64,000 nt of DNA from Actinomycetota bacterium (GTDB taxonomy: Bacteria > Actinomycetota > Thermoleophilia > Gaiellales > F1-60-MAGs149): NCBI GenBank assembly GCA_009885805.1, contig VFJZ01000010.1, positions 1 to 64,000 on the forward strand, read 5' to 3'. The translations under genes were made by a program, and so were the position numbers. Below the pieces are notes generated by a model. That model was not told the origin of the DNA. It ran no database searches and worked only from the letters and a program-made list of their open reading frames with translations. Shown here piece after piece: positions 1,859 to 21,367 of this stretch (the stretch's first letter is position 1; each line of letters opens with the position of its first letter).

Positions 1859-2380
1859 CTACAGGTCGAGGCCGACGTCGCGGCCCCGCTCCAACTCCAC
1901 CAATCGCCGCAACTGGCTCCGCACCGCGGCGTCCTGCTCTCGGTCGAGCGCGGCGCTCATCCGCACCAGATCATCCAGCGACGCCACCGGTACCCGCAAC
2001 CCGTCGCCGAGCGACTCGCGGTTGGCGTGCAGCCGCAGATCATTCCAGCCACCGCGCGTCCCCTCCGGCACCGCCACCACCTGCAACACGCCAACGGCCG
2101 TCTCGCGCCGGAGCACCGCCTCGGCCGCCGGCTGCGGATCGGCCCGCTCCGGCGCGATCAACGCCGCCACCGGCGGCGCACCGAGCTCCGCCAGCGCGGC
2201 GTCGAGCCGCTCCAGGTTCTCCGCCCGTCGCTGTGGACAGATATCCACGCCGCTCGTCACCTCGTCCGTGCCCTGCAGCACCCGGGCGAGAGCACCGATC
2301 ACGACGTACGCCACCCGGTGGCGTTCCAGCACCTGCAGCAGCCCGCGCGGATCGAACCCGTCGCCCGACTCAGCGGCCAC
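1859..2380 (-). CDS. Nucleotidyltransferase-fold protein, probable toxin/effector partner of XRE gene
   Basis: This small protein (about 173 residues) has an N-terminal AbiEii/MNT-like pattern: YVVIGALARVLQG followed by TSGVDICP and then AENLERLDAALAELGA. In the usual T-x-D-x-D-I signature the first Asp is Gly here, so catalysis is uncertain, although this may be normal for its subfamily. It overlaps the upstream XRE gene by 11 nt. GTG at 2380 sits 5 nt after GGGAGG and is preferred to GTG 2386. XRE + nucleotidyltransferase pairs on mobile elements often act as toxin-antitoxin or phage-defence modules; that role is inference here. Confidence 0.6.
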   Translation of the reverse strand: MAAESGDGFDPRGLLQVLERHRVAYVVIGALARVLQGTDEVTSGVDICPQRRAENLERLDAALAELGAPPVAALIAPERADPQPAAEAVLRRETAVGVLQVVAVPEGTRGGWNDLRLHANRESLGDGLRVPVASLDDLVRMSAALDREQDAAVRSQLRRLVELERGRDVGLDL

Positions 2381-2684
2381 CAGCACCTCCCAACGGCTTG
2401 GAACGGCGTGCCAACATCCGATCCAGGCGCTCCTTCGGCGTCAAAGCCGACGTCGCATCCAACACCGGCAACGACTCGCTCGACGCCGGCACCAGATCCA
2501 GCGACAAATCGAACCCGCACGCCCGCACCAGCTCCACCAGCGTCTCAAAGCCGGGCATCACGACGTCTCGTTCCCACCGCGCGATCTGCGCCCGATCCTT
2601 GCCCGACCGCTCACTCAACTCGGCCTGCGACAACCCCGCCCGCAGGCGCGCCTCCCGCACTATCGAACCGCTGCTACGAACCAT
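2370..2684 (-). CDS. XRE-family helix-turn-helix regulator (putative antitoxin)
   Basis: A protein of about 104 residues with a classic XRE HTH near its N-terminus: IVREARLRAGLSQAELSERS, then RAQIARWERDVVMPGFETL. The C-terminal 50 residues are not recognisable and probably contact the partner or dimerise. It is the first gene of a two-gene minus-strand unit with the nucleotidyltransferase, which it overlaps. ATG at 2684 is chosen because the HTH starts directly after it; GTG 2693 or a start at 2723 is possible. It probably represses its own promoter in the divergent gap to 2747. Confidence 0.7.
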   Translation of the reverse strand: MVRSSGSIVREARLRAGLSQAELSERSGKDRAQIARWERDVVMPGFETLVELVRACGFDLSLDLVPASSESLPVLDATSALTPKERLDRMLARRSKPLGGAGGR

Positions 2685-2746
2685 CGCAAGCACGCTCCGA
2701 GGAGGTCCTTGCCAACAAGTCATGAGACATATAAGCTACAAGCATC

Positions 2747-3142
2747 GTGAAAGGCAGTGAACAGCTCGATCTTGGAATCTCGGTAGCGGATCCAGCGCAG
2801 GATACTAACTCGGCCCGGCGTCGAGCTCGCGCCGGTGACGCACCCCGGGCAGCCGGGCTCGTCACGTCGCAGCCGCGCGGCGATCGGATCGACACGACTG
2901 CGACCGCGGTGCGCTCGCCCTACTTGACGACGGATGACGTTGCGCGACGGCTCCACTGCTCGCGGCGCTCCGTCCACGAGCTGACGCGGACTTCGGCGAT
3001 CCCGCATCGGCGGCCACCGGGCGCGCGACGCTGCCTATTCCTCGAGGCGGAACTGACCGCCTGGCTCGATGGCGCGAGCCTCGACGCCCGCGACCTTCCG
3101 CGCGGTGGGCGCGTCGTCAAGCCGAGCGCGCCGGCGGGTTGA
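2747..3142 (+). CDS. Excisionase-like HTH (MerR/HTH_17 type) protein
   Basis: This 131-residue protein has a winged-helix excisionase domain in its second half: PYLTTDDVARRLHCSRRSVH, then IPHRRP and RCLFLEAELTAWLDG. The pattern of helix-turn-helix, basic wing and a terminal helix ending in a conserved Trp is typical of phage and ICE excisionases. The first 55 residues are low in recognisable features, so the true start may lie downstream of the GTG at 2747. The gene sits directly upstream of the integrase on the same strand, the usual Xis-Int order. It would bend attachment-site DNA and direct excision. Confidence 0.6.
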   Translation: MKGSEQLDLGISVADPAQDTNSARRRARAGDAPRAAGLVTSQPRGDRIDTTATAVRSPYLTTDDVARRLHCSRRSVHELTRTSAIPHRRPPGARRCLFLEAELTAWLDGASLDARDLPRGGRVVKPSAPAG

Positions 3143-3209
3143 TCGCACGCCGGCGACGCACGACGCCACGGCGGTACGGTTCCCGGTCGACGACGAAAGG
3201 AACGCCACG

Positions 3210-4394
3210 ATGGCCAGCGTCCAGGCGCGACACGCGCGAACGTGCCGACTCGAGAAGGCGTGGTCGCCATTCGAGCTCCCGTCTGGCTGCTCGTGCGAGC
3301 CAACCTACTACGTCGTGGTTCGCGAGGGCACGAGGCTGCATCGTGAGCGCGTTGGGAAGAACCGCAAGCAGGCCGAACGGGCGCTGCGGAAAATCGGCAC
3401 GCAGGTCGACGACGGCGCCTACCAGCCTCAGCTGCACGCGAAGTTCGCCGACTGGGCCGCTCGGTGGCTGTCGACGCTCGAGACGAAGCCGACGACCCGC
3501 GCCTCCTACGCCTCCACCATCGCGTACGCAACGCGCGGCGTACCGCAGGACCGCGCCGGTCTCGTGCGGATCGCTGGGCTGGGCGAGAACGACGTCCGCC
3601 AGATCCGGGCGGCGGCGATCGGCGACTTCAACGCCGCCTTGCGCAGCGCCGGCCTGTCCGACTCGACCCGCGCCAAACACCTCCGCGTCCTGAACGCCTG
3701 CTTCGAGGCGGCACAGGCGCACGGCTACATCGCGGACAACCCCGTCAAGCGCCTCCCGAGAGCGCAACGGCCTCGACCGGCCAAGAAGGAGGCGGCGTAC
3801 TTCGAGGACGCCGAGCTCGCCCGGCTCGTCGTGGAGGTCACGCCCGGCGTGTTCCGCACGCTGGTCCTGACGGCTCTCAAGACCGGGATGCGGCAGGGTG
3901 AGCTCGCCGCACTAACCTGGCGCGACGTCGACCTCGCCGACGCCGTCATCCGCGTCCGACGGTCGATCACCGACGGCCACCTCGGCATCCCGAAGAACCA
4001 CGAGCGCCGCGACGTCGACATCACCCGCGACCTGGTCGACCTGCTCGGCGGCTGGTGGGGCGAAAGCGACACATCCGCCGACAGCGAACTCGTCTTCCCG
4101 GGCGACGGTCGCGACGGGTTCCTGGTGTCGTCGACGATTCTGAAGCGCGAGCTCTATCCCGCGATGCGCCGAGCCGGCGTTCCACGCGAGGGCCCCACCG
4201 GTGCACTGCGGACGTTCCACTCCCTCCGCCACACCTATGCCCGCATCGCCCTCGAGCACGGAGCGGAGCTCACCTGGCTCCAACGCCAACTCGGTCACTC
4301 GAGCCTCGCCGTCACCGTCGGCATCTACGGCCACTGGAGCCGCGAGCAGCGGAAGGTGCACGCAGAGCGGATGGAAGGCGCCTTCTCGATCTAA
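3210..4394 (+). CDS. Tyrosine recombinase / phage-type integrase
   Basis: A 394-residue integrase that would catalyse site-specific insertion of the element. The N-terminal part (to about residue 60) resembles an arm-binding domain. A SAM-like core-binding region includes FADWAARWLS. The catalytic domain shows the first Arg in TGMRQGELAALTW, HxxR in HSLRHTYARIAL, LGHSS, and the nucleophilic Tyr in VGIYGHWS. ATG 3210 is preceded by AAGGA at suitable spacing, so it is preferred to the upstream in-frame GTG at 3069. Its position beside the tRNA-Lys 3' end identifies the likely attachment site. Confidence 0.9.
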   Translation: MASVQARHARTCRLEKAWSPFELPSGCSCEPTYYVVVREGTRLHRERVGKNRKQAERALRKIGTQVDDGAYQPQLHAKFADWAARWLSTLETKPTTRASYASTIAYATRGVPQDRAGLVRIAGLGENDVRQIRAAAIGDFNAALRSAGLSDSTRAKHLRVLNACFEAAQAHGYIADNPVKRLPRAQRPRPAKKEAAYFEDAELARLVVEVTPGVFRTLVLTALKTGMRQGELAALTWRDVDLADAVIRVRRSITDGHLGIPKNHERRDVDITRDLVDLLGGWWGESDTSADSELVFPGDGRDGFLVSSTILKRELYPAMRRAGVPREGPTGALRTFHSLRHTYARIALEHGAELTWLQRQLGHSSLAVTVGIYGHWSREQRKVHAERMEGAFSI

Positions 4395-5941: not shown

Positions 5942-6088
5942 CTCGCCGCGGAGCGGCTTCTTGGCGGACCTCTTCGGGTCCTGCTTCGTGCCGACGGAGT
6001 ACCCCTGGCTGCCCCGTGCCTTCTTCTCGGCGATGACGTCCCGGCCTTCGGTCGCGGTTGAAGTCTCAGGCTAGCGCAGGACTGCGCA

Positions 6089-6874
6089 TCAGCCATCGGG
6101 AACGACATCGACGTCGTCGACGTCCTCATCTCCACGACGCTCGACGGCCTGCGAGAGGAAGATCGAGAGCTCGTAGAGGACCAGCAACGGCGCCAGCTCC
6201 ATCAGCATCGTCACGGGGTCGATCCCCGGAAGCGCGGCGGCGATGACGGCGAGGACGACGATCGCGTAGCGGCGATAGCGGCGCATCAGCCGCGAGTTGA
6301 CGATGCCGGCGCGCGTCAGCAGCAGCACCGCCGCAGGCATCTCGAAGATGATCCCGACCGCGAGCATCATCGTGACGCAGAACTCGTACCAGTCGAGGGC
6401 GCGCGGCTGGACGATGTACAGCTCGGAGTCGAACTTGAGCAGGAAGTCGGCGGCTGCCGGGATCACCACGATGTACGCGAACACCGCGCCGCAGGCGAAG
6501 AGCGCCGGCACCATGATCAGCACCGGCCAGGAGCGGGCGTTGTAGTCGGGGTTGAACGCCGGCAGGACGTAGGCGTAGAGCTGGTAGAACAGCACCGGCA
6601 ACGCGACGAGGACCGCGGCCCAGAACGAGATCGTGACAGCGATCTTGAACTGCTCGCCGACGGCCAGCACCACCAGGTCGATGTCGCGCCCGTCGTTCGT
6701 CTTCGGGATCTGCCGCTTCAGCAGTTCGATGATGTCGGTGTGACGCCAGAACGCCACCGAGAAGCCAACAGCGAGGCAGCCGAGCGCGATGAAGAGCCGG
6801 TTCCGGAGCTCGTCGAGGTGCTCGACGACCGTAACCTCCTCCTCGTGCTCCAGTCGGCGCGTACGGAGCCGCAT
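6089..6874 (-). CDS. tatC: Sec-independent protein translocase TatC
   Basis: A 261-residue polytopic membrane protein. It begins with the conserved TatC entry motif VVEHLDELRNRLFIAL, followed by six hydrophobic segments and the conserved FEMPAAVLLLTRAGIV region in the second half. TatC is the receptor for twin-arginine signal peptides and forms the Tat translocon with TatA in the inner membrane. The acidic C-terminal tail (GDEDVDDVDVV) is cytosolic. It lies 14 nt downstream of tatA in the same direction. No tatB is in the window; minimal TatA/TatC systems are common in Gram-positive-type bacteria. Confidence 0.95.
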   Translation of the reverse strand: MRLRTRRLEHEEEVTVVEHLDELRNRLFIALGCLAVGFSVAFWRHTDIIELLKRQIPKTNDGRDIDLVVLAVGEQFKIAVTISFWAAVLVALPVLFYQLYAYVLPAFNPDYNARSWPVLIMVPALFACGAVFAYIVVIPAAADFLLKFDSELYIVQPRALDWYEFCVTMMLAVGIIFEMPAAVLLLTRAGIVNSRLMRRYRRYAIVVLAVIAAALPGIDPVTMLMELAPLLVLYELSIFLSQAVERRGDEDVDDVDVVPDG

Positions 6875-6888
6875 GCGGGACGACCGGC

Positions 6889-7206
6889 CTAGCGGGGCTC
6901 GTCGGCAGCCGCGGCTGCCGGCTCGGCGGCGGCCTCGACGACGACCTCGGCAGGAGCAGGCGTCGCGACGACGGGGGCCTGGACGATCGGAGCCTCAACG
7001 ACCGCGGTCGGCGGAATCTCGGCCTTGGTCTTCGTCTCTTCTTCCTTGCGCTCGTCGTCGTCGTCGCCCGAGACGGCGCGCTTGAAGTCGCGCATGCCGC
7101 GACCGAGGCCCTTCCCGAGCTCCGGGAGCTTCTTGGGACCGAAGATGAGCAGGGCGATGACCAGAATGATCGCGATCTCGCCAGGGCCAATGGTGTTGCC
7201 GAACAT
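6889..7206 (-). CDS. tatA: Twin-arginine translocase subunit TatA
   Basis: A 105-residue protein with the hallmark TatA/E architecture: short N-terminus, membrane helix (EIAIILVIALLIFGPKKLPEL), the FGPKKLPELG hinge, amphipathic helix (GKGLGRGMRDFKRAV) and a charged tail. The tail is Glu/Lys-rich and then Ala/Pro/Val-rich. It forms the pore or membrane-thinning component of the Tat pathway. The start has a strong GGGAGGA ribosome-binding site. It is the first gene of a tatA-tatC unit, with a TACCCT -10-like box at 7240-7245. Confidence 0.95.
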   Translation of the reverse strand: MFGNTIGPGEIAIILVIALLIFGPKKLPELGKGLGRGMRDFKRAVSGDDDDERKEEETKTKAEIPPTAVVEAPIVQAPVVATPAPAEVVVEAAAEPAAAAADEPR

Positions 7207-7283
7207 GCTCGCGTTCCTCCCTCGCGTGCTCTGAACCTGAGGGTACCACGGTCGCGGCGTTCGACGGTCCGGCGCCAGTGGAC

Positions 7284-7289
7284 TACGGT
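7284..7289 (+). promoter_or_regulatory. -10 box TACGGT, leaderless promoter for the VWA gene
   Basis: TACGGT is followed by a 7-nt gap and then the GTG start at 7297. This spacing places transcription start at the start codon. Confidence 0.5.
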
Positions 7290-7296
7290 TCGGCTC

Positions 7297-8997
7297 GTGG
7301 ACGCGAAACTCCTACGCGGAATTGCCATCCTGGCCGGAATCCTGGTGGTGCTCGTCGCTGCCCTCGTCAAGGTGGTGGGTGGCGACGATGCGGGCTCCAC
7401 CACCGGCGCGACGGCGACGTCCGAGGCTCCGCCGGCGGACGCAGTCGTGATCACCGTCGCCTACTCACCGGAGAAGGAGGCGCTGTTCAACGAGGCCTTC
7501 GCCGAGTTCAACGACCGCAAGGTCGAGGTCGGCGGACGCGTCGTCTTCGCACAGGGCGAGAAGGTGTCGTCCGGCGCCGCCTTCGACCGGCTCCGCGCCG
7601 GAACGCTACAGCCGGTGATCTGGACGCCGTCGTCCTCGCTCTGGGGACGATTGCTGACGCAGGTCGGCGACGTCACGTGGATCGCCGACCGCAACGCGTC
7701 GTTCGTCCGCACGCCGCTGGTGATCGCGATCTGGGAGGATCAGGCGCAGGCGCTCGGCTGGCCCGCCAAGGCCCTCGGCTGGGAGGAGATCCTGGCCGAG
7801 TCCCAGAACGCGGAGGGCTGGGCGAAGTACGGCCACCCGGAGTGGGGCCCGTTCCGGCTCGGCCACACGAACCCTGACTTCTCCACGTCAGGCCTGTCGG
7901 CCGTCGCCGCCGAGTACTACGCCGCCACGGGCAAGACCGAGGGACTCCGACTCGAAGACGTCGAGGATCCGGCCGTCCGCCAGAAGGTGCGCGACATCCA
8001 GTCGGCGATCGTCCACTACGGCGACACGACACTCTTCTTCGCCGAGCAGCTGGCAGGCCGCGGCCCCTCGTACGCCTCGGCCGTGGCGATGGAGGAGACG
8101 ACGCTGGTCGACTTCAACACGCGCCTGCGCGGCCCGGACCGGAAGCTCGTTGCGATCTATCCGAAGGAGGGGACGTTCTTCTCGGACAACCCGCTGATGG
8201 TGATGAACGCGCCGTGGGTGACGGCGGAGCAGAAGGAGGGCGCCGCCAGCCTGATCGAGTACCTGACCTCGCCGGAAGTCCAGGCGCGGGTGCCGGCGCT
8301 CGGGTTCCGTCCGGCAGAAGGCGAACCGGCGTCGCCGGGGACCCTGACAACGGCCAACGGCGTCGACCTCACCGTGGTGCCGCGTCTGCTGTCGCTGCCC
8401 GAGCCGCGCGTGCTCGCCCGCATCAAGGAGCTCTGGCGCGAGGACCGCAAGCCGGCCGACATCGTCCTCGTGCTCGATACGTCGGGGTCGATGGGCGACG
8501 AAGGGAAGCTCGCCCAGGCACAGCAGGGCCTCGTGCGGTTCCTCGACCAGCTCTCGGCGCGCGACCGCGTCGCCCTCGTCGCCTTCGCCGACCAGCCGTC
8601 GCTCGTCCGGCCCCTCGCCGAGATGCAGCCCGCTGCGAAGCAGGGCCTCGCGGCCGCGATCCAGGGGTTGTTCCCTGACGGCGGGACAGCCGTCTACGAC
8701 GCCACGAACCTGGGCGTCGACTACCTCCTGAAGGAGCAGAACCCGAAACACATCGCCGCCGTCGTCGTACTCACCGACGGCGAGGACAACAAGTCGACGG
8801 CCGTCGTCCAGGACGTCGTCACGAGGCTGCGCGGCACGAGCGAGTCGGGCACCGTCCGTGTCTTCACGATCGCCTATGGCGTCGAGGCGAACCGCGACGC
8901 GCTGAAGGCGATCGCCGAGGCGGGCGGCGGGAAGCAGTACGACGGCGACCCGAACAACATCGACGCCGTGTACGTGTCGATCTCCTCGTTCTTCTGA
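7297..8997 (+). CDS. Membrane-anchored solute-binding/VWA-domain fusion protein
   Basis: A 566-residue protein with an N-terminal membrane anchor or signal (residues about 8-27). This is followed by a periplasmic-binding-type domain (VITVAYSPEKEALFNEAFAE, then FSDNPLMVMNAPWVT and IEYLTSPEVQARV) and a C-terminal von Willebrand A domain. The VWA domain has an intact MIDAS: DTSGSMGDEG (about residue 394), the Thr in PDGGTAVYDA, and LTDGEDNKS. The combination suggests an extracytoplasmic ligand or metal-dependent adhesion function. It starts the row VWA-SBP, membrane protein, PspA, all on the same strand, which hints at an envelope-stress role (inference). Confidence 0.8.
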   Translation: MDAKLLRGIAILAGILVVLVAALVKVVGGDDAGSTTGATATSEAPPADAVVITVAYSPEKEALFNEAFAEFNDRKVEVGGRVVFAQGEKVSSGAAFDRLRAGTLQPVIWTPSSSLWGRLLTQVGDVTWIADRNASFVRTPLVIAIWEDQAQALGWPAKALGWEEILAESQNAEGWAKYGHPEWGPFRLGHTNPDFSTSGLSAVAAEYYAATGKTEGLRLEDVEDPAVRQKVRDIQSAIVHYGDTTLFFAEQLAGRGPSYASAVAMEETTLVDFNTRLRGPDRKLVAIYPKEGTFFSDNPLMVMNAPWVTAEQKEGAASLIEYLTSPEVQARVPALGFRPAEGEPASPGTLTTANGVDLTVVPRLLSLPEPRVLARIKELWREDRKPADIVLVLDTSGSMGDEGKLAQAQQGLVRFLDQLSARDRVALVAFADQPSLVRPLAEMQPAAKQGLAAAIQGLFPDGGTAVYDATNLGVDYLLKEQNPKHIAAVVVLTDGEDNKSTAVVQDVVTRLRGTSESGTVRVFTIAYGVEANRDALKAIAEAGGGKQYDGDPNNIDAVYVSISSFF

Positions 8998-17198: not shown

Positions 17199-17894
17199 AT
17201 GAACGGTGTCGAACCCACTCAAACTCGTACATTGTTCGACGCCCTTGGACGCGGCTGGCCCGAGGCGCTCGCGCCGATTGCCGGCACGCTCTCGCAACTC
17301 GGCGACTTCCTGCGCGCCGAACGTGCCGGCGGCCGCGGCTTCCTTCCCGCAGGCGGACAGATCCTGCGGGCGTTCGAAATGCCGATCGCCGACGTCCGAG
17401 TCCTGATCGTCGGTCAGGATCCGTACCCGACACCCGGTCACCCGGTCGGCCTCTCGTTCTCGATCGCAGCCGACGTGCGTCCGCTCCCGAAGAGCCTCGT
17501 CAACATCTTCCGCGAGTACCGCGACGACCTCGGCCTGCCGACGCCGGCGACCGGCGACCTGTCGGGCTGGGCGGCGGCAGGCGTGATGCTGCTGAACCGG
17601 GTCCTGACCGTCCGGCCGGGGGAACCCGGATCGCACCGCGGCCAGGGGTGGGAGACCGTGACCGAGCAGGCGATCCGCGCGCTCGTCGCGCGCGGCGGGC
17701 CGCTCGTCGCGATCCTCTGGGGTCGCGACGCACGCAACCTCGCGCCGCTGCTCGGCCCGACGCCGCGGATCGAGTCGGCGCACCCGAGCCCGCTGTCCGC
17801 GGCGTCCGGCTTCTTCGGTTCGCGACCGTTCAGCCGCGCCAACGAGATCCTCGCCAGCCAGGGCGCGGCTCCGATCGCCTGGTCGCTACCGTAG
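17199..17894 (+). CDS. ung: Uracil-DNA glycosylase (family 1)
   Basis: A 231-residue DNA repair enzyme that removes uracil from DNA. It carries the water-activating motif [20 protein letters not shown] (Asp and Tyr), the [11 protein letters not shown] segment, and the catalytic-His minor-groove motif SAHPSPLSA followed by GFFGSRPF. These are the family 1 Ung signatures and the length is standard. A TACCAT sequence about 40 nt upstream could be the -10. It is followed by the AAA-protease fusion gene, which has its own promoter. Confidence 0.95.
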
Positions 17895-17903: not shown

Positions 17904-19928
17904 GTGGCCCTCGACGCGGAGATTCGCGACCGCTACGTCGCCATGCGCGATGCGACCGACAAGGCATCGCGGAGCGAGGTCGACGCCTTCGTCGCGACCA
18001 CGACGGAGCGCTTCGGCGCCGACTCCCTCGAGCGTGCGTACGCGATCGCGATCCTCGCGCGCTGGAGCCGCTGGCACGCCGAGGATCAGGCTGCGGGCTG
18101 CGCCGCTGCCGCGGAGGCGACCCGTCTGGGCCGCGCGCACGGCGCTGCGAACGACGCGCTCGCCTTCTGGCACGACCTCCTCGGCCTGCTCTCCGCCGAT
18201 ACGGGTGACATGCCGGCCGCGATCGCAGCGGCCGATCTCTGCGTCGAGCACTGGCTGCTCGCCGGACAGTCGTCGCTGCCGTACATGGCCCACCGCCAGG
18301 CGCAGGCGATCGTCATGCGGCTCGCGCTGGAACCGGTCGGGCCCCTGCTGGTACGACTCGAACCACCCTGGCGGCAGATGGACGACTATGGCCGGGGCGA
18401 GCTCGTCAAGCTGCTTGGACAGGTCGTCCGGCGGCGACGGGACCTGACCGACGCCGAGCGGGCGGCCCTCGGCGGGGTCGACGCGACCGTCGATGCAATT
18501 GCCCGAATCGCGCCGCCGCCGACTGTGGAGCCGGATCACGAGGCGCTCGCCGAGGTTCTCGACGAACTCGACCGACTCGTCGGCCTGGCGGCGGTCAAGG
18601 CCGAGGTCCACGAGCTCGTGGCGCTGCTGAAGGTGCGGGAGATGCGCCGCGCGGCCGGCTTGCCGGTGCCAGACACCGCCAACCACCTGGCGTTCCTCGG
18701 GCCGCCCGGGACCGGTAAGACGACGGTCGCGCGGCTGCTCGGGAGGGTCTTCAACGCCCTCGGCCTGCTCGCGAAAGGCCAGGTGGTGGAGGCCGATCGT
18801 GCGGAGCTGGTGGCCCAGTACATCGGACAGACGGCACCGAAGGTCGATGCGCTGGTGACACGCGCAATGGACGGCGTGTTGTTCATCGACGAGGCGTACA
18901 GCCTGTTCAACTCGTCGGAACTGGACTTCGGACACGAGGCGGTGGCGACGCTCCTGAAGCGGATGGAGGACGATCGCGATCGGCTGGTGGTCGTCCTCGC
19001 CGGGTACACCGACGAGATGGAGCGCCTCCTGGAGTCGAACCCGGGCCTGCGCAGCCGCGTGCCGACTACGATCCGGTTCGACAGCTTCTCGGGCGACGAA
19101 CTGGCGCTGATCTTCGACGGCATGGCCGCGGACGGCGGCTACACCGTCGACGGTGAAGCCCGGGCGCGGGTCCGCCAGCTCGCCGGCCTGATGAAGGGCA
19201 GCGCGGACGGCCGCACCTTCGGCAACGCCCGCGACCTGCGCAACCTGTTCGAGGACACGCTCGCGCGGCAGGCGACCCGGCTCGTCGCCGACGGCAGGAC
19301 GCCTGACGCCGCCGCGCTGCGGCAGCTCCGCTGCGAGGACATCCACTGGACGGAACTGGGCGACCCCGACGCGGCGCCGCTTGTCGGCGAGGAGGCCCGG
19401 GTCGTCGCCTACCACGAGGCCGGCCACGCGCTCGTCCGGCACGTCGCCGGCGGCGGTCCGCCCGCCCTCGTCACGATCGTTCCCTCGGCGCGCGCCCTCG
19501 GACGCACCTTCTTCGCCGAAGACTCGCGCCAACTGTTCCGCCGCGAGGACCTGATCGCGATCGCCGCCAGCGCACTGGGCGGTCGCGCCGCCGAGGAGGC
19601 CGTCTTCGGCGAGGCCAACGCCGGCGCGATCGATGATCTGCAGGTCGCGGAACGGATCGTCCGGACGGTGCTCCGAGCAGGGCTCGGCGAGACGGACACG
19701 GCGGACGCGATGGCGACGTATGCGGCGACCGGCGGCAGCGGGCTCGACCAGGGCTGGCACGGCGACCGCACCCGCACCGAGATCGGCGAGCTGCTCGCCG
19801 AGGCATACGCACTGGCCGAGCGAATCGTCACCGAGCACCGCGCTCCGCTCGCCGCGCTGGCCGAAGCCCTGCTCGAACAGCGGACCGTCGCGGGCGACGA
19901 GATCGCCGCGCTGTTGACGCTCAAGTGA
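17904..19928 (+). CDS. CbbX-type AAA+ ATPase fused to FtsH-type M41 metalloprotease
   Basis: A 674-residue protein. Residues 1-215 are helical and TPR-like. Residues about 220-480 form a CbbX/SpoVK/EccA-type AAA domain: Walker A GPPGTGKTT (about 266), pore-loop region YIGQTAPKVD, Walker B GVLFIDEAYSL (about 323), GYTDEME, and the lid motif TFGNARDLRNLFE. Residues about 498-660 are an M41 peptidase: zinc motif HEAGH at 504-508 and third-ligand region GAIDDLQVAE at 574-583 (Asp 578). All protease residues look intact. There is no membrane helix, unlike FtsH. It would be a soluble ATP-dependent protease or remodeller; substrate unknown. Confidence 0.85.
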   Translation: MALDAEIRDRYVAMRDATDKASRSEVDAFVATTTERFGADSLERAYAIAILARWSRWHAEDQAAGCAAAAEATRLGRAHGAANDALAFWHDLLGLLSADTGDMPAAIAAADLCVEHWLLAGQSSLPYMAHRQAQAIVMRLALEPVGPLLVRLEPPWRQMDDYGRGELVKLLGQVVRRRRDLTDAERAALGGVDATVDAIARIAPPPTVEPDHEALAEVLDELDRLVGLAAVKAEVHELVALLKVREMRRAAGLPVPDTANHLAFLGPPGTGKTTVARLLGRVFNALGLLAKGQVVEADRAELVAQYIGQTAPKVDALVTRAMDGVLFIDEAYSLFNSSELDFGHEAVATLLKRMEDDRDRLVVVLAGYTDEMERLLESNPGLRSRVPTTIRFDSFSGDELALIFDGMAADGGYTVDGEARARVRQLAGLMKGSADGRTFGNARDLRNLFEDTLARQATRLVADGRTPDAAALRQLRCEDIHWTELGDPDAAPLVGEEARVVAYHEAGHALVRHVAGGGPPALVTIVPSARALGRTFFAEDSRQLFRREDLIAIAASALGGRAAEEAVFGEANAGAIDDLQVAERIVRTVLRAGLGETDTADAMATYAATGGSGLDQGWHGDRTRTEIGELLAEAYALAERIVTEHRAPLAALAEALLEQRTVAGDEIAALLTLK

Positions 19929-19976
19929 ACAGCGGCAGGTGCCGAGATCGTTGGCGTGAAGCGATCGGAGGGTTCG

Positions 19977-20342
19977 ATGTCGGCATGGCTCGAAGATGGT
20001 GAGAGGGTCGTGCTCGAGGATCGTCGGAGCGGACGGCTCGAGGGACGGCTCCGTGCCTTCACCGGCGCCATCGTGGCGACGGATCGGCGTCTGCTCTTCC
20101 TCGAGCGCCCGCGCTGGGCGTACGCGTTCGGCCTGATCGGCCTGCTGCTGACGAAGCCGACCGAGCGAAGGCTGGACGCGGCCTTCGCGGACATCGCGAG
20201 CGTCGGCGTCGGCAGCCATGGGCGTGCGAAGACGCTCGAGATCGAACTGACGTCGGGCGAGTCGCACCGGCTGCTGGTGAAGGATCCCGAGCCGTGGCTC
20301 GCGGCGATCGGACCGCAGAGCGCGGAGCGGGCGGCGGCGTAG
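19977..20342 (+). CDS. Small PH-like domain protein of unknown function
   Basis: A 121-residue protein with a strand-rich pattern like bacterial PH domains: GERVVLEDRRSGRLEGRL, AIVATDRRLLFLERPR, a short hydrophobic stretch (YAFGLIGLLLT), then IASVGVGSHGRAKTLEIEL and WLAAI. The VATDRRLLFL phrase is typical of the bPH/YvbH-like group. ATG 19977 is preceded by GGAGGG at good spacing and preferred to GTG 19956. It follows the AAA-protease gene by 48 nt on the same strand; a functional link is possible but not shown. Confidence 0.6.
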   Translation: MSAWLEDGERVVLEDRRSGRLEGRLRAFTGAIVATDRRLLFLERPRWAYAFGLIGLLLTKPTERRLDAAFADIASVGVGSHGRAKTLEIELTSGESHRLLVKDPEPWLAAIGPQSAERAAA

Positions 20343-20398: not shown

Positions 20399-20404
20399 TA
20401 GCCT
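20399..20404 (+). promoter_or_regulatory. -10 box TAGCCT, leaderless promoter for the ABC exporter
   Basis: TAGCCT, a 6-nt gap, then ATC at 20411. The same spacing recurs at many starts in the window and marks ATC 20411 as the first codon. Confidence 0.5.
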
Positions 20405-20410
20405 GCCCGC

Positions 20411-21367
20411 ATCGCCGGCATCGTCGAGATCGAGGGCGTCACCAAGGCGTTCGGTGCGACCCGCGCCCTCGCCGGTGTCGATCTCGAGATCCCGGAGGGA
20501 TCGATCCAGGGCCTCCTCGGCCCGAACGGCGCCGGCAAGACGACCATCGTCCGGATCCTCGCCACCCTGCTCAAGCCCGACCAGGGCAGGGCGCGGGTGG
20601 CGGGCCTCGACGTCGTCCGTGACGCGCAGCGCGTGCGCGAGGTGATCGGTCTCGCCGGCCAGTTCGCGGCGGTCGATGATCAGCTGACCGGACGGGAGAA
20701 TCTCGAGATCGTCGGCAGGCTCTACGGCCTCAGCGTTCGGGAGGCGCGGACGCGAGCCGGCGAGGCCCTGGAGCGCCTGGGTCTCGTCGACGCCGCCGAC
20801 CGCCTCGCCCGCACCTACTCGGGCGGCATGCGGCGCCGGCTCGACCTTGGCGCGAGCCTCGTCGGGCGGCCGCGGGTGCTGCTCCTGGACGAGCCGACGA
20901 CCGGACTCGACCCGCGCACGCGGCTCGAACTGTGGGAGCTGATCCGCGACCGTGTGCGCGCCGGCGCGACGCTCGTGCTGACGACCCAGTACCTGGAGGA
21001 GGCCGATCAGCTCGCCGACCACATCGTCGTCATCGACCACGGCACGGTGATCGCGCGGGGCACCTCCGACGAGCTGAAGTCTCGCCTCGGCGCCGACGTG
21101 ATCGAGATCGTGCTGGCCGACGCCGCGCTGCAGGAACGCGCCTGCGATCTGCTGCGACCGCTGGCGGTGGAGCGCCCGCAGGTCGATCGTGACGGCACGC
21201 GCGTGAGCGTCCCGGTCGCCGGCGGCTCGATGACCCTGCTCGCGGTGGTGCGCGCCCTCGACGAGGCGCAGATCCCCGTCGTCGATGTCGGCCTCAGGCG
21301 CCCGTCGCTCGACGACGTGTTCCTTGCGATCACCGGGCACGCCGCCGAGGAGGCCGCGGCCGGATGA
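20411..21367 (+). CDS. DrrA-type ABC exporter ATPase with apparent ATC start
   Basis: An ATPase of about 318 residues: GLLGPNGAGKTTIVRILATL (Walker A), YSGGMRRRLDLGASLVG (signature), VLLLDEPTTGLDP (Walker B) and TQYLEEADQLADHIVVIDHG (D-/H-loop). The C-terminal DrrA-type domain ends RRPSLDDVFLAITGH. The frame upstream has no ATG, GTG or TTG between the stop TAG (20399) and the Walker A motif; the first canonical start (GTG 20597) would delete Walker A. ATC 20411 lies exactly 6 nt after TAGCCT, so a leaderless ATC start is proposed; a base error is the alternative. It overlaps the permease by 4 nt (ATGA). Confidence 0.85.
   Translation: MAGIVEIEGVTKAFGATRALAGVDLEIPEGSIQGLLGPNGAGKTTIVRILATLLKPDQGRARVAGLDVVRDAQRVREVIGLAGQFAAVDDQLTGRENLEIVGRLYGLSVREARTRAGEALERLGLVDAADRLARTYSGGMRRRLDLGASLVGRPRVLLLDEPTTGLDPRTRLELWELIRDRVRAGATLVLTTQYLEEADQLADHIVVIDHGTVIARGTSDELKSRLGADVIEIVLADAALQERACDLLRPLAVERPQVDRDGTRVSVPVAGGSMTLLAVVRALDEAQIPVVDVGLRRPSLDDVFLAITGHAAEEAAAG

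Follow-up and report, generated by a model that had tools for sequence, protein, structure and literature searches.

Most accounts of AAA+ proteases present a small set of fixed motor-peptidase pairs. In FtsH and in the i-AAA and m-AAA proteases an AAA+ motor is followed by a C-terminal M41 domain with an HExxH motif and a distal Asp, and FtsH has membrane helices. CbbX (the red-type Rubisco activase), SpoVK and EccA belong to another higher-order AAA clade, united against FtsH by a Gly-Tyr pair at sensor-1, an Asn before the Arg finger and a sensor-2 Arg (PMC10659427). These three act on dedicated targets, members of their clade have been suggested to aid assembly and activation, not degradation, and the evolutionary survey of the clade, the only one we found, reports no peptidase fusion or physical link, unlike most well-characterised classical AAA proteins (PMC10659427). 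No publication pairing CbbX with M41 was found in the literature searched, most subscription papers lying outside that search.

The window, meaning the whole 64,000-nucleotide stretch of DNA that was analysed, contains a gene that the first-pass annotation had read as a CbbX-type ATPase fused to an M41 protease. Its layout is as follows.

17904..19928, + strand: fusion gene, 674 aa, a single open frame (start GTG 17904, stop TGA 19928)
17904..18518, + strand: all-helical N-terminal domain, residues 1-205, putatively substrate-recruiting (AlphaFold2 secondary structure, hydropathy)
18534..19349, + strand: CbbX-type AAA+ module, residues 211-482 (PDB 3syk, NCBIfam, Foldseek)
19350..19388, + strand: linker from lid to protease, residues 483-495, near which the closest TPR-CbbX relatives stop
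19389..19910, + strand: Peptidase_M41 domain, residues 496-669 (Pfam PF01434)

The domain search bears out this composition, with Pfam matches to AAA (264-392, 64.8 bits), AAA_lid_6 (418-480, 44.0 bits) and Peptidase_M41 (496-669, 100.5 bits) that all exceed the curated cut-offs (29.9 bits for PF01434). The best PDB matches divide the chain in the same manner, CbbX (3syk) over 211-482 (E 5.8e-59) and FtsH over 496-672, and the NCBIfam FtsH models match chiefly residues 496-670. No stop interrupts the 674-codon frame, and GC3 lies between 0.79 and 0.95 in each 75-codon block, junction included, which indicates one gene and not the frameshift product that had been raised as a possible objection. 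The opposite strand is likewise open (793 aa), as is frequent for antisense frames in DNA of about 72% GC; the domain matches come from the + frame, on which the search was run.

The motor carries the motifs listed here.

18699..18725, + strand: Walker A GPPGTGKTT, residues 266-274 (motif search)
18819..18827, + strand: YIG candidate pore loop, residues 306-308 (motif and alignment; role by analogy)
18882..18896, + strand: Walker B FIDEA, residues 327-331 (motif search)
19002..19007, + strand: sensor-1 Gly-Tyr signature, residues 367-368 (motif and alignment; SpoVK/CbbX/EccA hallmark, PMC10659427)
19038..19052, + strand: Asn379, four residues before Arg383, in NPGLR (motif and alignment; hallmark, PMC10659427)
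19155..19343, + strand: AAA_lid_6, residues 418-480, with the GNARDLRN sensor-2 segment at 440-447 (Pfam PF17866 and alignment)

All three published hallmarks of the SpoVK/CbbX/EccA clade are present (G367-Y368; N379 and R383 in NPGLRSR; the sensor-2 Arg), and the residue corresponding to the sensor-2 Arg, kept within GNARDLR (440-446), is absent from the FtsH rows of the alignment. The YIG at 306-308 is a candidate pore loop by comparison with CbbX and FtsH (F-V/A-G). The NCBIfam models of the clade match the AAA domain well below their equivalog cut-offs, SpoVK at 261 bits (cut-off 423), EccA at 246 (467) and CbbX at 231 (459), so that it is none of these proteins proper. It shares the CbbX motifs and lid, at 45% identity to the crystal structure over the AAA module; differences from CbbX are the added M41 and the large N-domain. 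Like the fusion, EccA has a helical-repeat N-domain (PMC10659427), whereas neither EccA nor SpoVK has a protease domain. From FtsH the fusion departs in the clade of its AAA domain (sensor-2 Arg, GY, Asn before the Arg finger), in its AAA_lid_6 and in having a soluble helical N-domain in place of membrane helices. A role as Rubisco activase was rejected: no Rubisco large-chain match occurs in the genome, the score lies below the CbbX cut-off, and the domain falls outside the CbbX clade.

AAA-domain trees (27 to 60 domains each) agree with the motifs and HMM scores in placing the motor on the CbbX-like side, as the first-pass annotation had proposed. FtsH AAA domains are set apart from the fusion's clade at 100/100 support, CbbX of Rubisco operons forms a separate clade, and the fusion groups with CbbX-like ATPases of its own class that have helical repeats (support 90/90 and 89/92, not starred). 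Forcing the fusion into the FtsH clade lowers the log-likelihood by 214 and is rejected by the AU test (p = 4e-5), and an earlier, looser constraint under which it merely branches at the base beside FtsH gave AU p 0.42. An apparent kinship to ATPases of the same family that lack Walker A was discounted, a long-branch effect being the likely cause. In four small genomes of the family, CbbX-like proteins have lost the Walker A lysine (GDPGTAEDEV or GEPGTGEDEV) and are apparent pseudo-ATPases of the SpoVK/CbbX/EccA clade. At eight loci, from Bacteroidota, Pseudomonadota, Exiguobacterium and others, the CbbX-like chain holds two or three AAA domains in tandem.

The closest AAA domains found belong to TPR-CbbX-like ATPases at six loci, which align with the fusion at 53-58% identity over the AAA part, have a helical-repeat N-domain and a similar length up to the lid, and stop no more than about 40 residues past it, without M41. 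Beyond their end region the fusion continues through its short linker into M41, which sits at the C-terminus, the same position as in FtsH. Because these closest relatives lack M41, the simplest history, well supported by the sequence comparisons, would be the addition of M41 at the C-terminus of a helical-repeat CbbX-like ATPase. A second CbbX-like ATPase is encoded in the same genome (contig 8), 52% identical to the fusion over the AAA part.

The maximum hydropathy over 19 residues is 1.32 in the fusion, compared with 2.2-2.6 in three FtsH proteins; the fusion therefore has no membrane anchor, and the expectation of a non-membranous N-terminus is borne out, no transmembrane segment being detected. 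The description of the N-terminal domain as TPR-like holds in part. AlphaFold2 predicts helical hairpins (pLDDT about 90 at residues 21-80, lower after 120), but Pfam gave no match on the domain and a profile comparison with the TPR domains of the relatives revealed no recognisable homology. Among those relatives TPR matches do occur in the N-domain, exceeding the cut-off in two of the four scanned.

The protease domain retains its active-site residues.

19413..19427, + strand: zinc motif HEAGH, residues 504-508 (motif and alignment)
19635..19637, + strand: Asp578 as third zinc ligand, in register with the 'NDL' Asp of FtsH (alignment)

In the alignment with FtsH neither the catalytic Glu nor any of the three zinc ligands has been lost, as had been read from the sequence at first pass. 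Divergence elsewhere is high: identity to any FtsH retrieved is at most 42%, the maximum being reached with a short FtsH from the order that has a single helix (a tree placement without support), it is 32% and 39% to the two regular FtsH proteins of the same genome, and the branch leading to the domain is very long, at 4.1-4.9 changes per site. This branch could reflect relaxed constraint, though the motifs are intact. This short type of FtsH, which has a single apparent transmembrane helix and lacks a large extracytoplasmic domain, occurs widely in the order alongside classical FtsH, with one member on contig 64 of genome G000 and many relatives. Another FtsH-like protein of that genome (L004:1123-3204, - strand, contig 98; 693 aa) has a hydrophobic N-terminus, a long AAA insertion and a diverged M41 domain, 26% identical to that of the fusion. 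A plasmid match to the M41 part (Caballeronia) turned out to be a membrane FtsH-type gene.

An AlphaFold2 model built on 42 aligned sequences has a mean pLDDT of 83.5, with most of the AAA domain above 90, most M41 helices high and those around the zinc site mostly above 90; its pTM is modest (0.62), which makes the relative placing of the domains tentative. The top Foldseek match of the model is CbbX (E 5.5e-19; target TM 0.71-0.77 for 3syl/3zuh), followed by FtsH and mitochondrial AAA proteases (crystal and cryo-EM FtsH chains) over about 470 columns spanning AAA and M41. The predicted layout thus resembles that of FtsH and the i-AAA and m-AAA proteases, and the model backs the same order of motor and protease as in FtsH.

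Across all genome, plasmid and phage searches, one genome alone yielded the fusion. No second example occurred in 80 relatives, in 129 genomes of the order, among the 299 genomes sampled from the class, the 396 from the phylum, the 256 from the Streptomyces phylum or the 200 from another phylum, in the plasmids, phages or viral contigs searched, or among the best 80 of 405 matches when about 85,000 species genomes were scanned by motif; the genome samples share members, and fusions too distant for the cut-offs would have escaped. One match has identical coordinates and score in two of the samples (G106 in that of the phylum, G864 in that of the Streptomyces phylum), from which the phylum of the window appears to be the one that contains Streptomyces. 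The fusion is rare or lineage-specific, a result that establishes rarity and not uniqueness. The earlier caution that the fusion might be a one-off frameshift artefact is contradicted by the continuous frame, though the fusion is known from the single genome. An origin in mobile or defence elements was considered and dropped, there being no plasmid or phage copy and only weak generic ATPase matches from PADLOC.

Two genes closely flank the fusion.

17199..17894, + strand: uracil-DNA glycosylase superfamily gene (Pfam UDG, 43.8 bits), its stop 9 nt before the fusion start; adjacency only
19956..20342, + strand: small protein, 128 aa, beginning 27 nt past the fusion

The PH-like label given earlier to the 128-aa protein, a candidate partner of the fusion in that first reading, is not confirmed, as the protein has no match in Pfam, NCBIfam or PDB; its single-sequence structure model is poor (pLDDT 53.5). 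Together the neighbours (uracil-DNA glycosylase, 128-aa protein, ABC-2 transporter) point to no clear substrate. Farther upstream, 2.3 kb from the fusion, FolE is 82% identical to its counterpart in G001, a genome of the same family with which the left flank of the contig is syntenic, the genes neighbouring FolE lying close by there too. The glycosylase, the fusion and the 128-aa gene have no counterpart in the syntenic G001 stretch; judged from these comparisons, they form a lineage-specific block in a contig of this family. The continuous frame together with the left-flank synteny makes a frameshift or simple contamination unlikely. In the same window a DrrA-type ABC ATPase frame (20402-21367, + strand) offers none of the start codons ATG, GTG and TTG ahead of its Walker A; its first listed start, at 20597, falls past that motif. 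This suggests a non-standard start codon or an upstream sequence error. Among the 80 CbbX-like loci from other phyla, two have ftsH within a few kb of the CbbX-like gene (L052, and L078 with FtsH at about 2244-4089 and the CbbX-like gene at 6001-7611), which may be chance.

We consider it probable that the fusion is a soluble, self-contained, ATP-dependent zinc protease, hexameric, in which M41 is fed by a CbbX-type ring; a cytosolic location is the most likely one for such a product. Six chains would assemble into a ring through their CbbX-type AAA domains, with the helical N-domain pointing away from the protease side and recruiting a dedicated substrate. The YIG pore loops would then engage the substrate at a terminus or a loop, draw this segment through the ring by ATP hydrolysis and pass it to the hexameric M41 disk below, where it would be cut by zinc held on His504, His508 and Asp578. 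We infer hexamer, threading, proteolysis, dedicated substrate and the coupling of remodelling to proteolysis by analogy with the described systems. Substrate range is likely narrow, because the clade of the motor acts on dedicated targets (PMC10659427). Loss of the anchor would be no obstacle provided that the ring forms, since a soluble engineered YME1L is active (PMC5095350) and the soluble domains of FtsH hexamerise without a membrane (PMC9020784).

The most serious competing explanation, itself unlikely, is that the fusion works as a remodelling chaperone in which M41 provides a scaffold for oligomerisation or cleaves nothing but itself or an adaptor bound to it. This would suit both the strong divergence of M41 and the characterised members of the clade, which are non-proteolytic dedicated chaperones (PMC10659427), but a scaffold would be expected to lose the zinc ligands and catalytic Glu, which are kept here among confidently predicted M41 helices. 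With the fusion known from a single genome, there are no orthologues on which selection on the M41 active site within it could be shown. The chain might alternatively be one subunit of a mixed ring, shared with the contig 8 CbbX-like ATPase or with an FtsH, and not form a homohexamer. We give this a small chance: the 52% identity of the two AAA parts and the FtsH heterohexamers known where several FtsH proteins exist (PMC9020784) would allow it, yet the genes share no operon or co-occurrence pattern and the fusion is complete alone.

Slightly less probable again is an assembly or binning artefact that joined a CbbX-like gene to the 3' end of an ftsH. The fusion does come from one draft genome only (101 contigs, 3.3% contamination) and is absent from the other genomes of the order searched; however, reading frame and codon pattern run on unchanged across the join, FolE and the local synteny tie the contig to its family, and M41 is too diverged from every FtsH retrieved, the genome's own included, to be a copy of a local gene. 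This divergence speaks against its having been joined on recently from a local ftsH during assembly. The reading as an ordinary FtsH paralogue, one whose N-terminus is unusual, we regard as virtually ruled out, since the AAA domain of the fusion scores about 230-260 bits with the CbbX-clade models and nesting within FtsH is rejected, even though its M41 domain is FtsH-like.

Reading the fusion as a soluble protease, we lean towards regarding it as a previously undescribed type of soluble AAA+ protease and the first case of a peptidase coupled to a motor of the SpoVK/CbbX/EccA clade. If this is true, a motor for remodelling complexes would be convertible into a degrading machine by the addition of M41. 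If the protein works, it would amount to a natural test of whether the M41 disk can be driven by a different classical AAA motor, and it would offer a soluble M41 protease that sidesteps the membrane-protein problem of FtsH.
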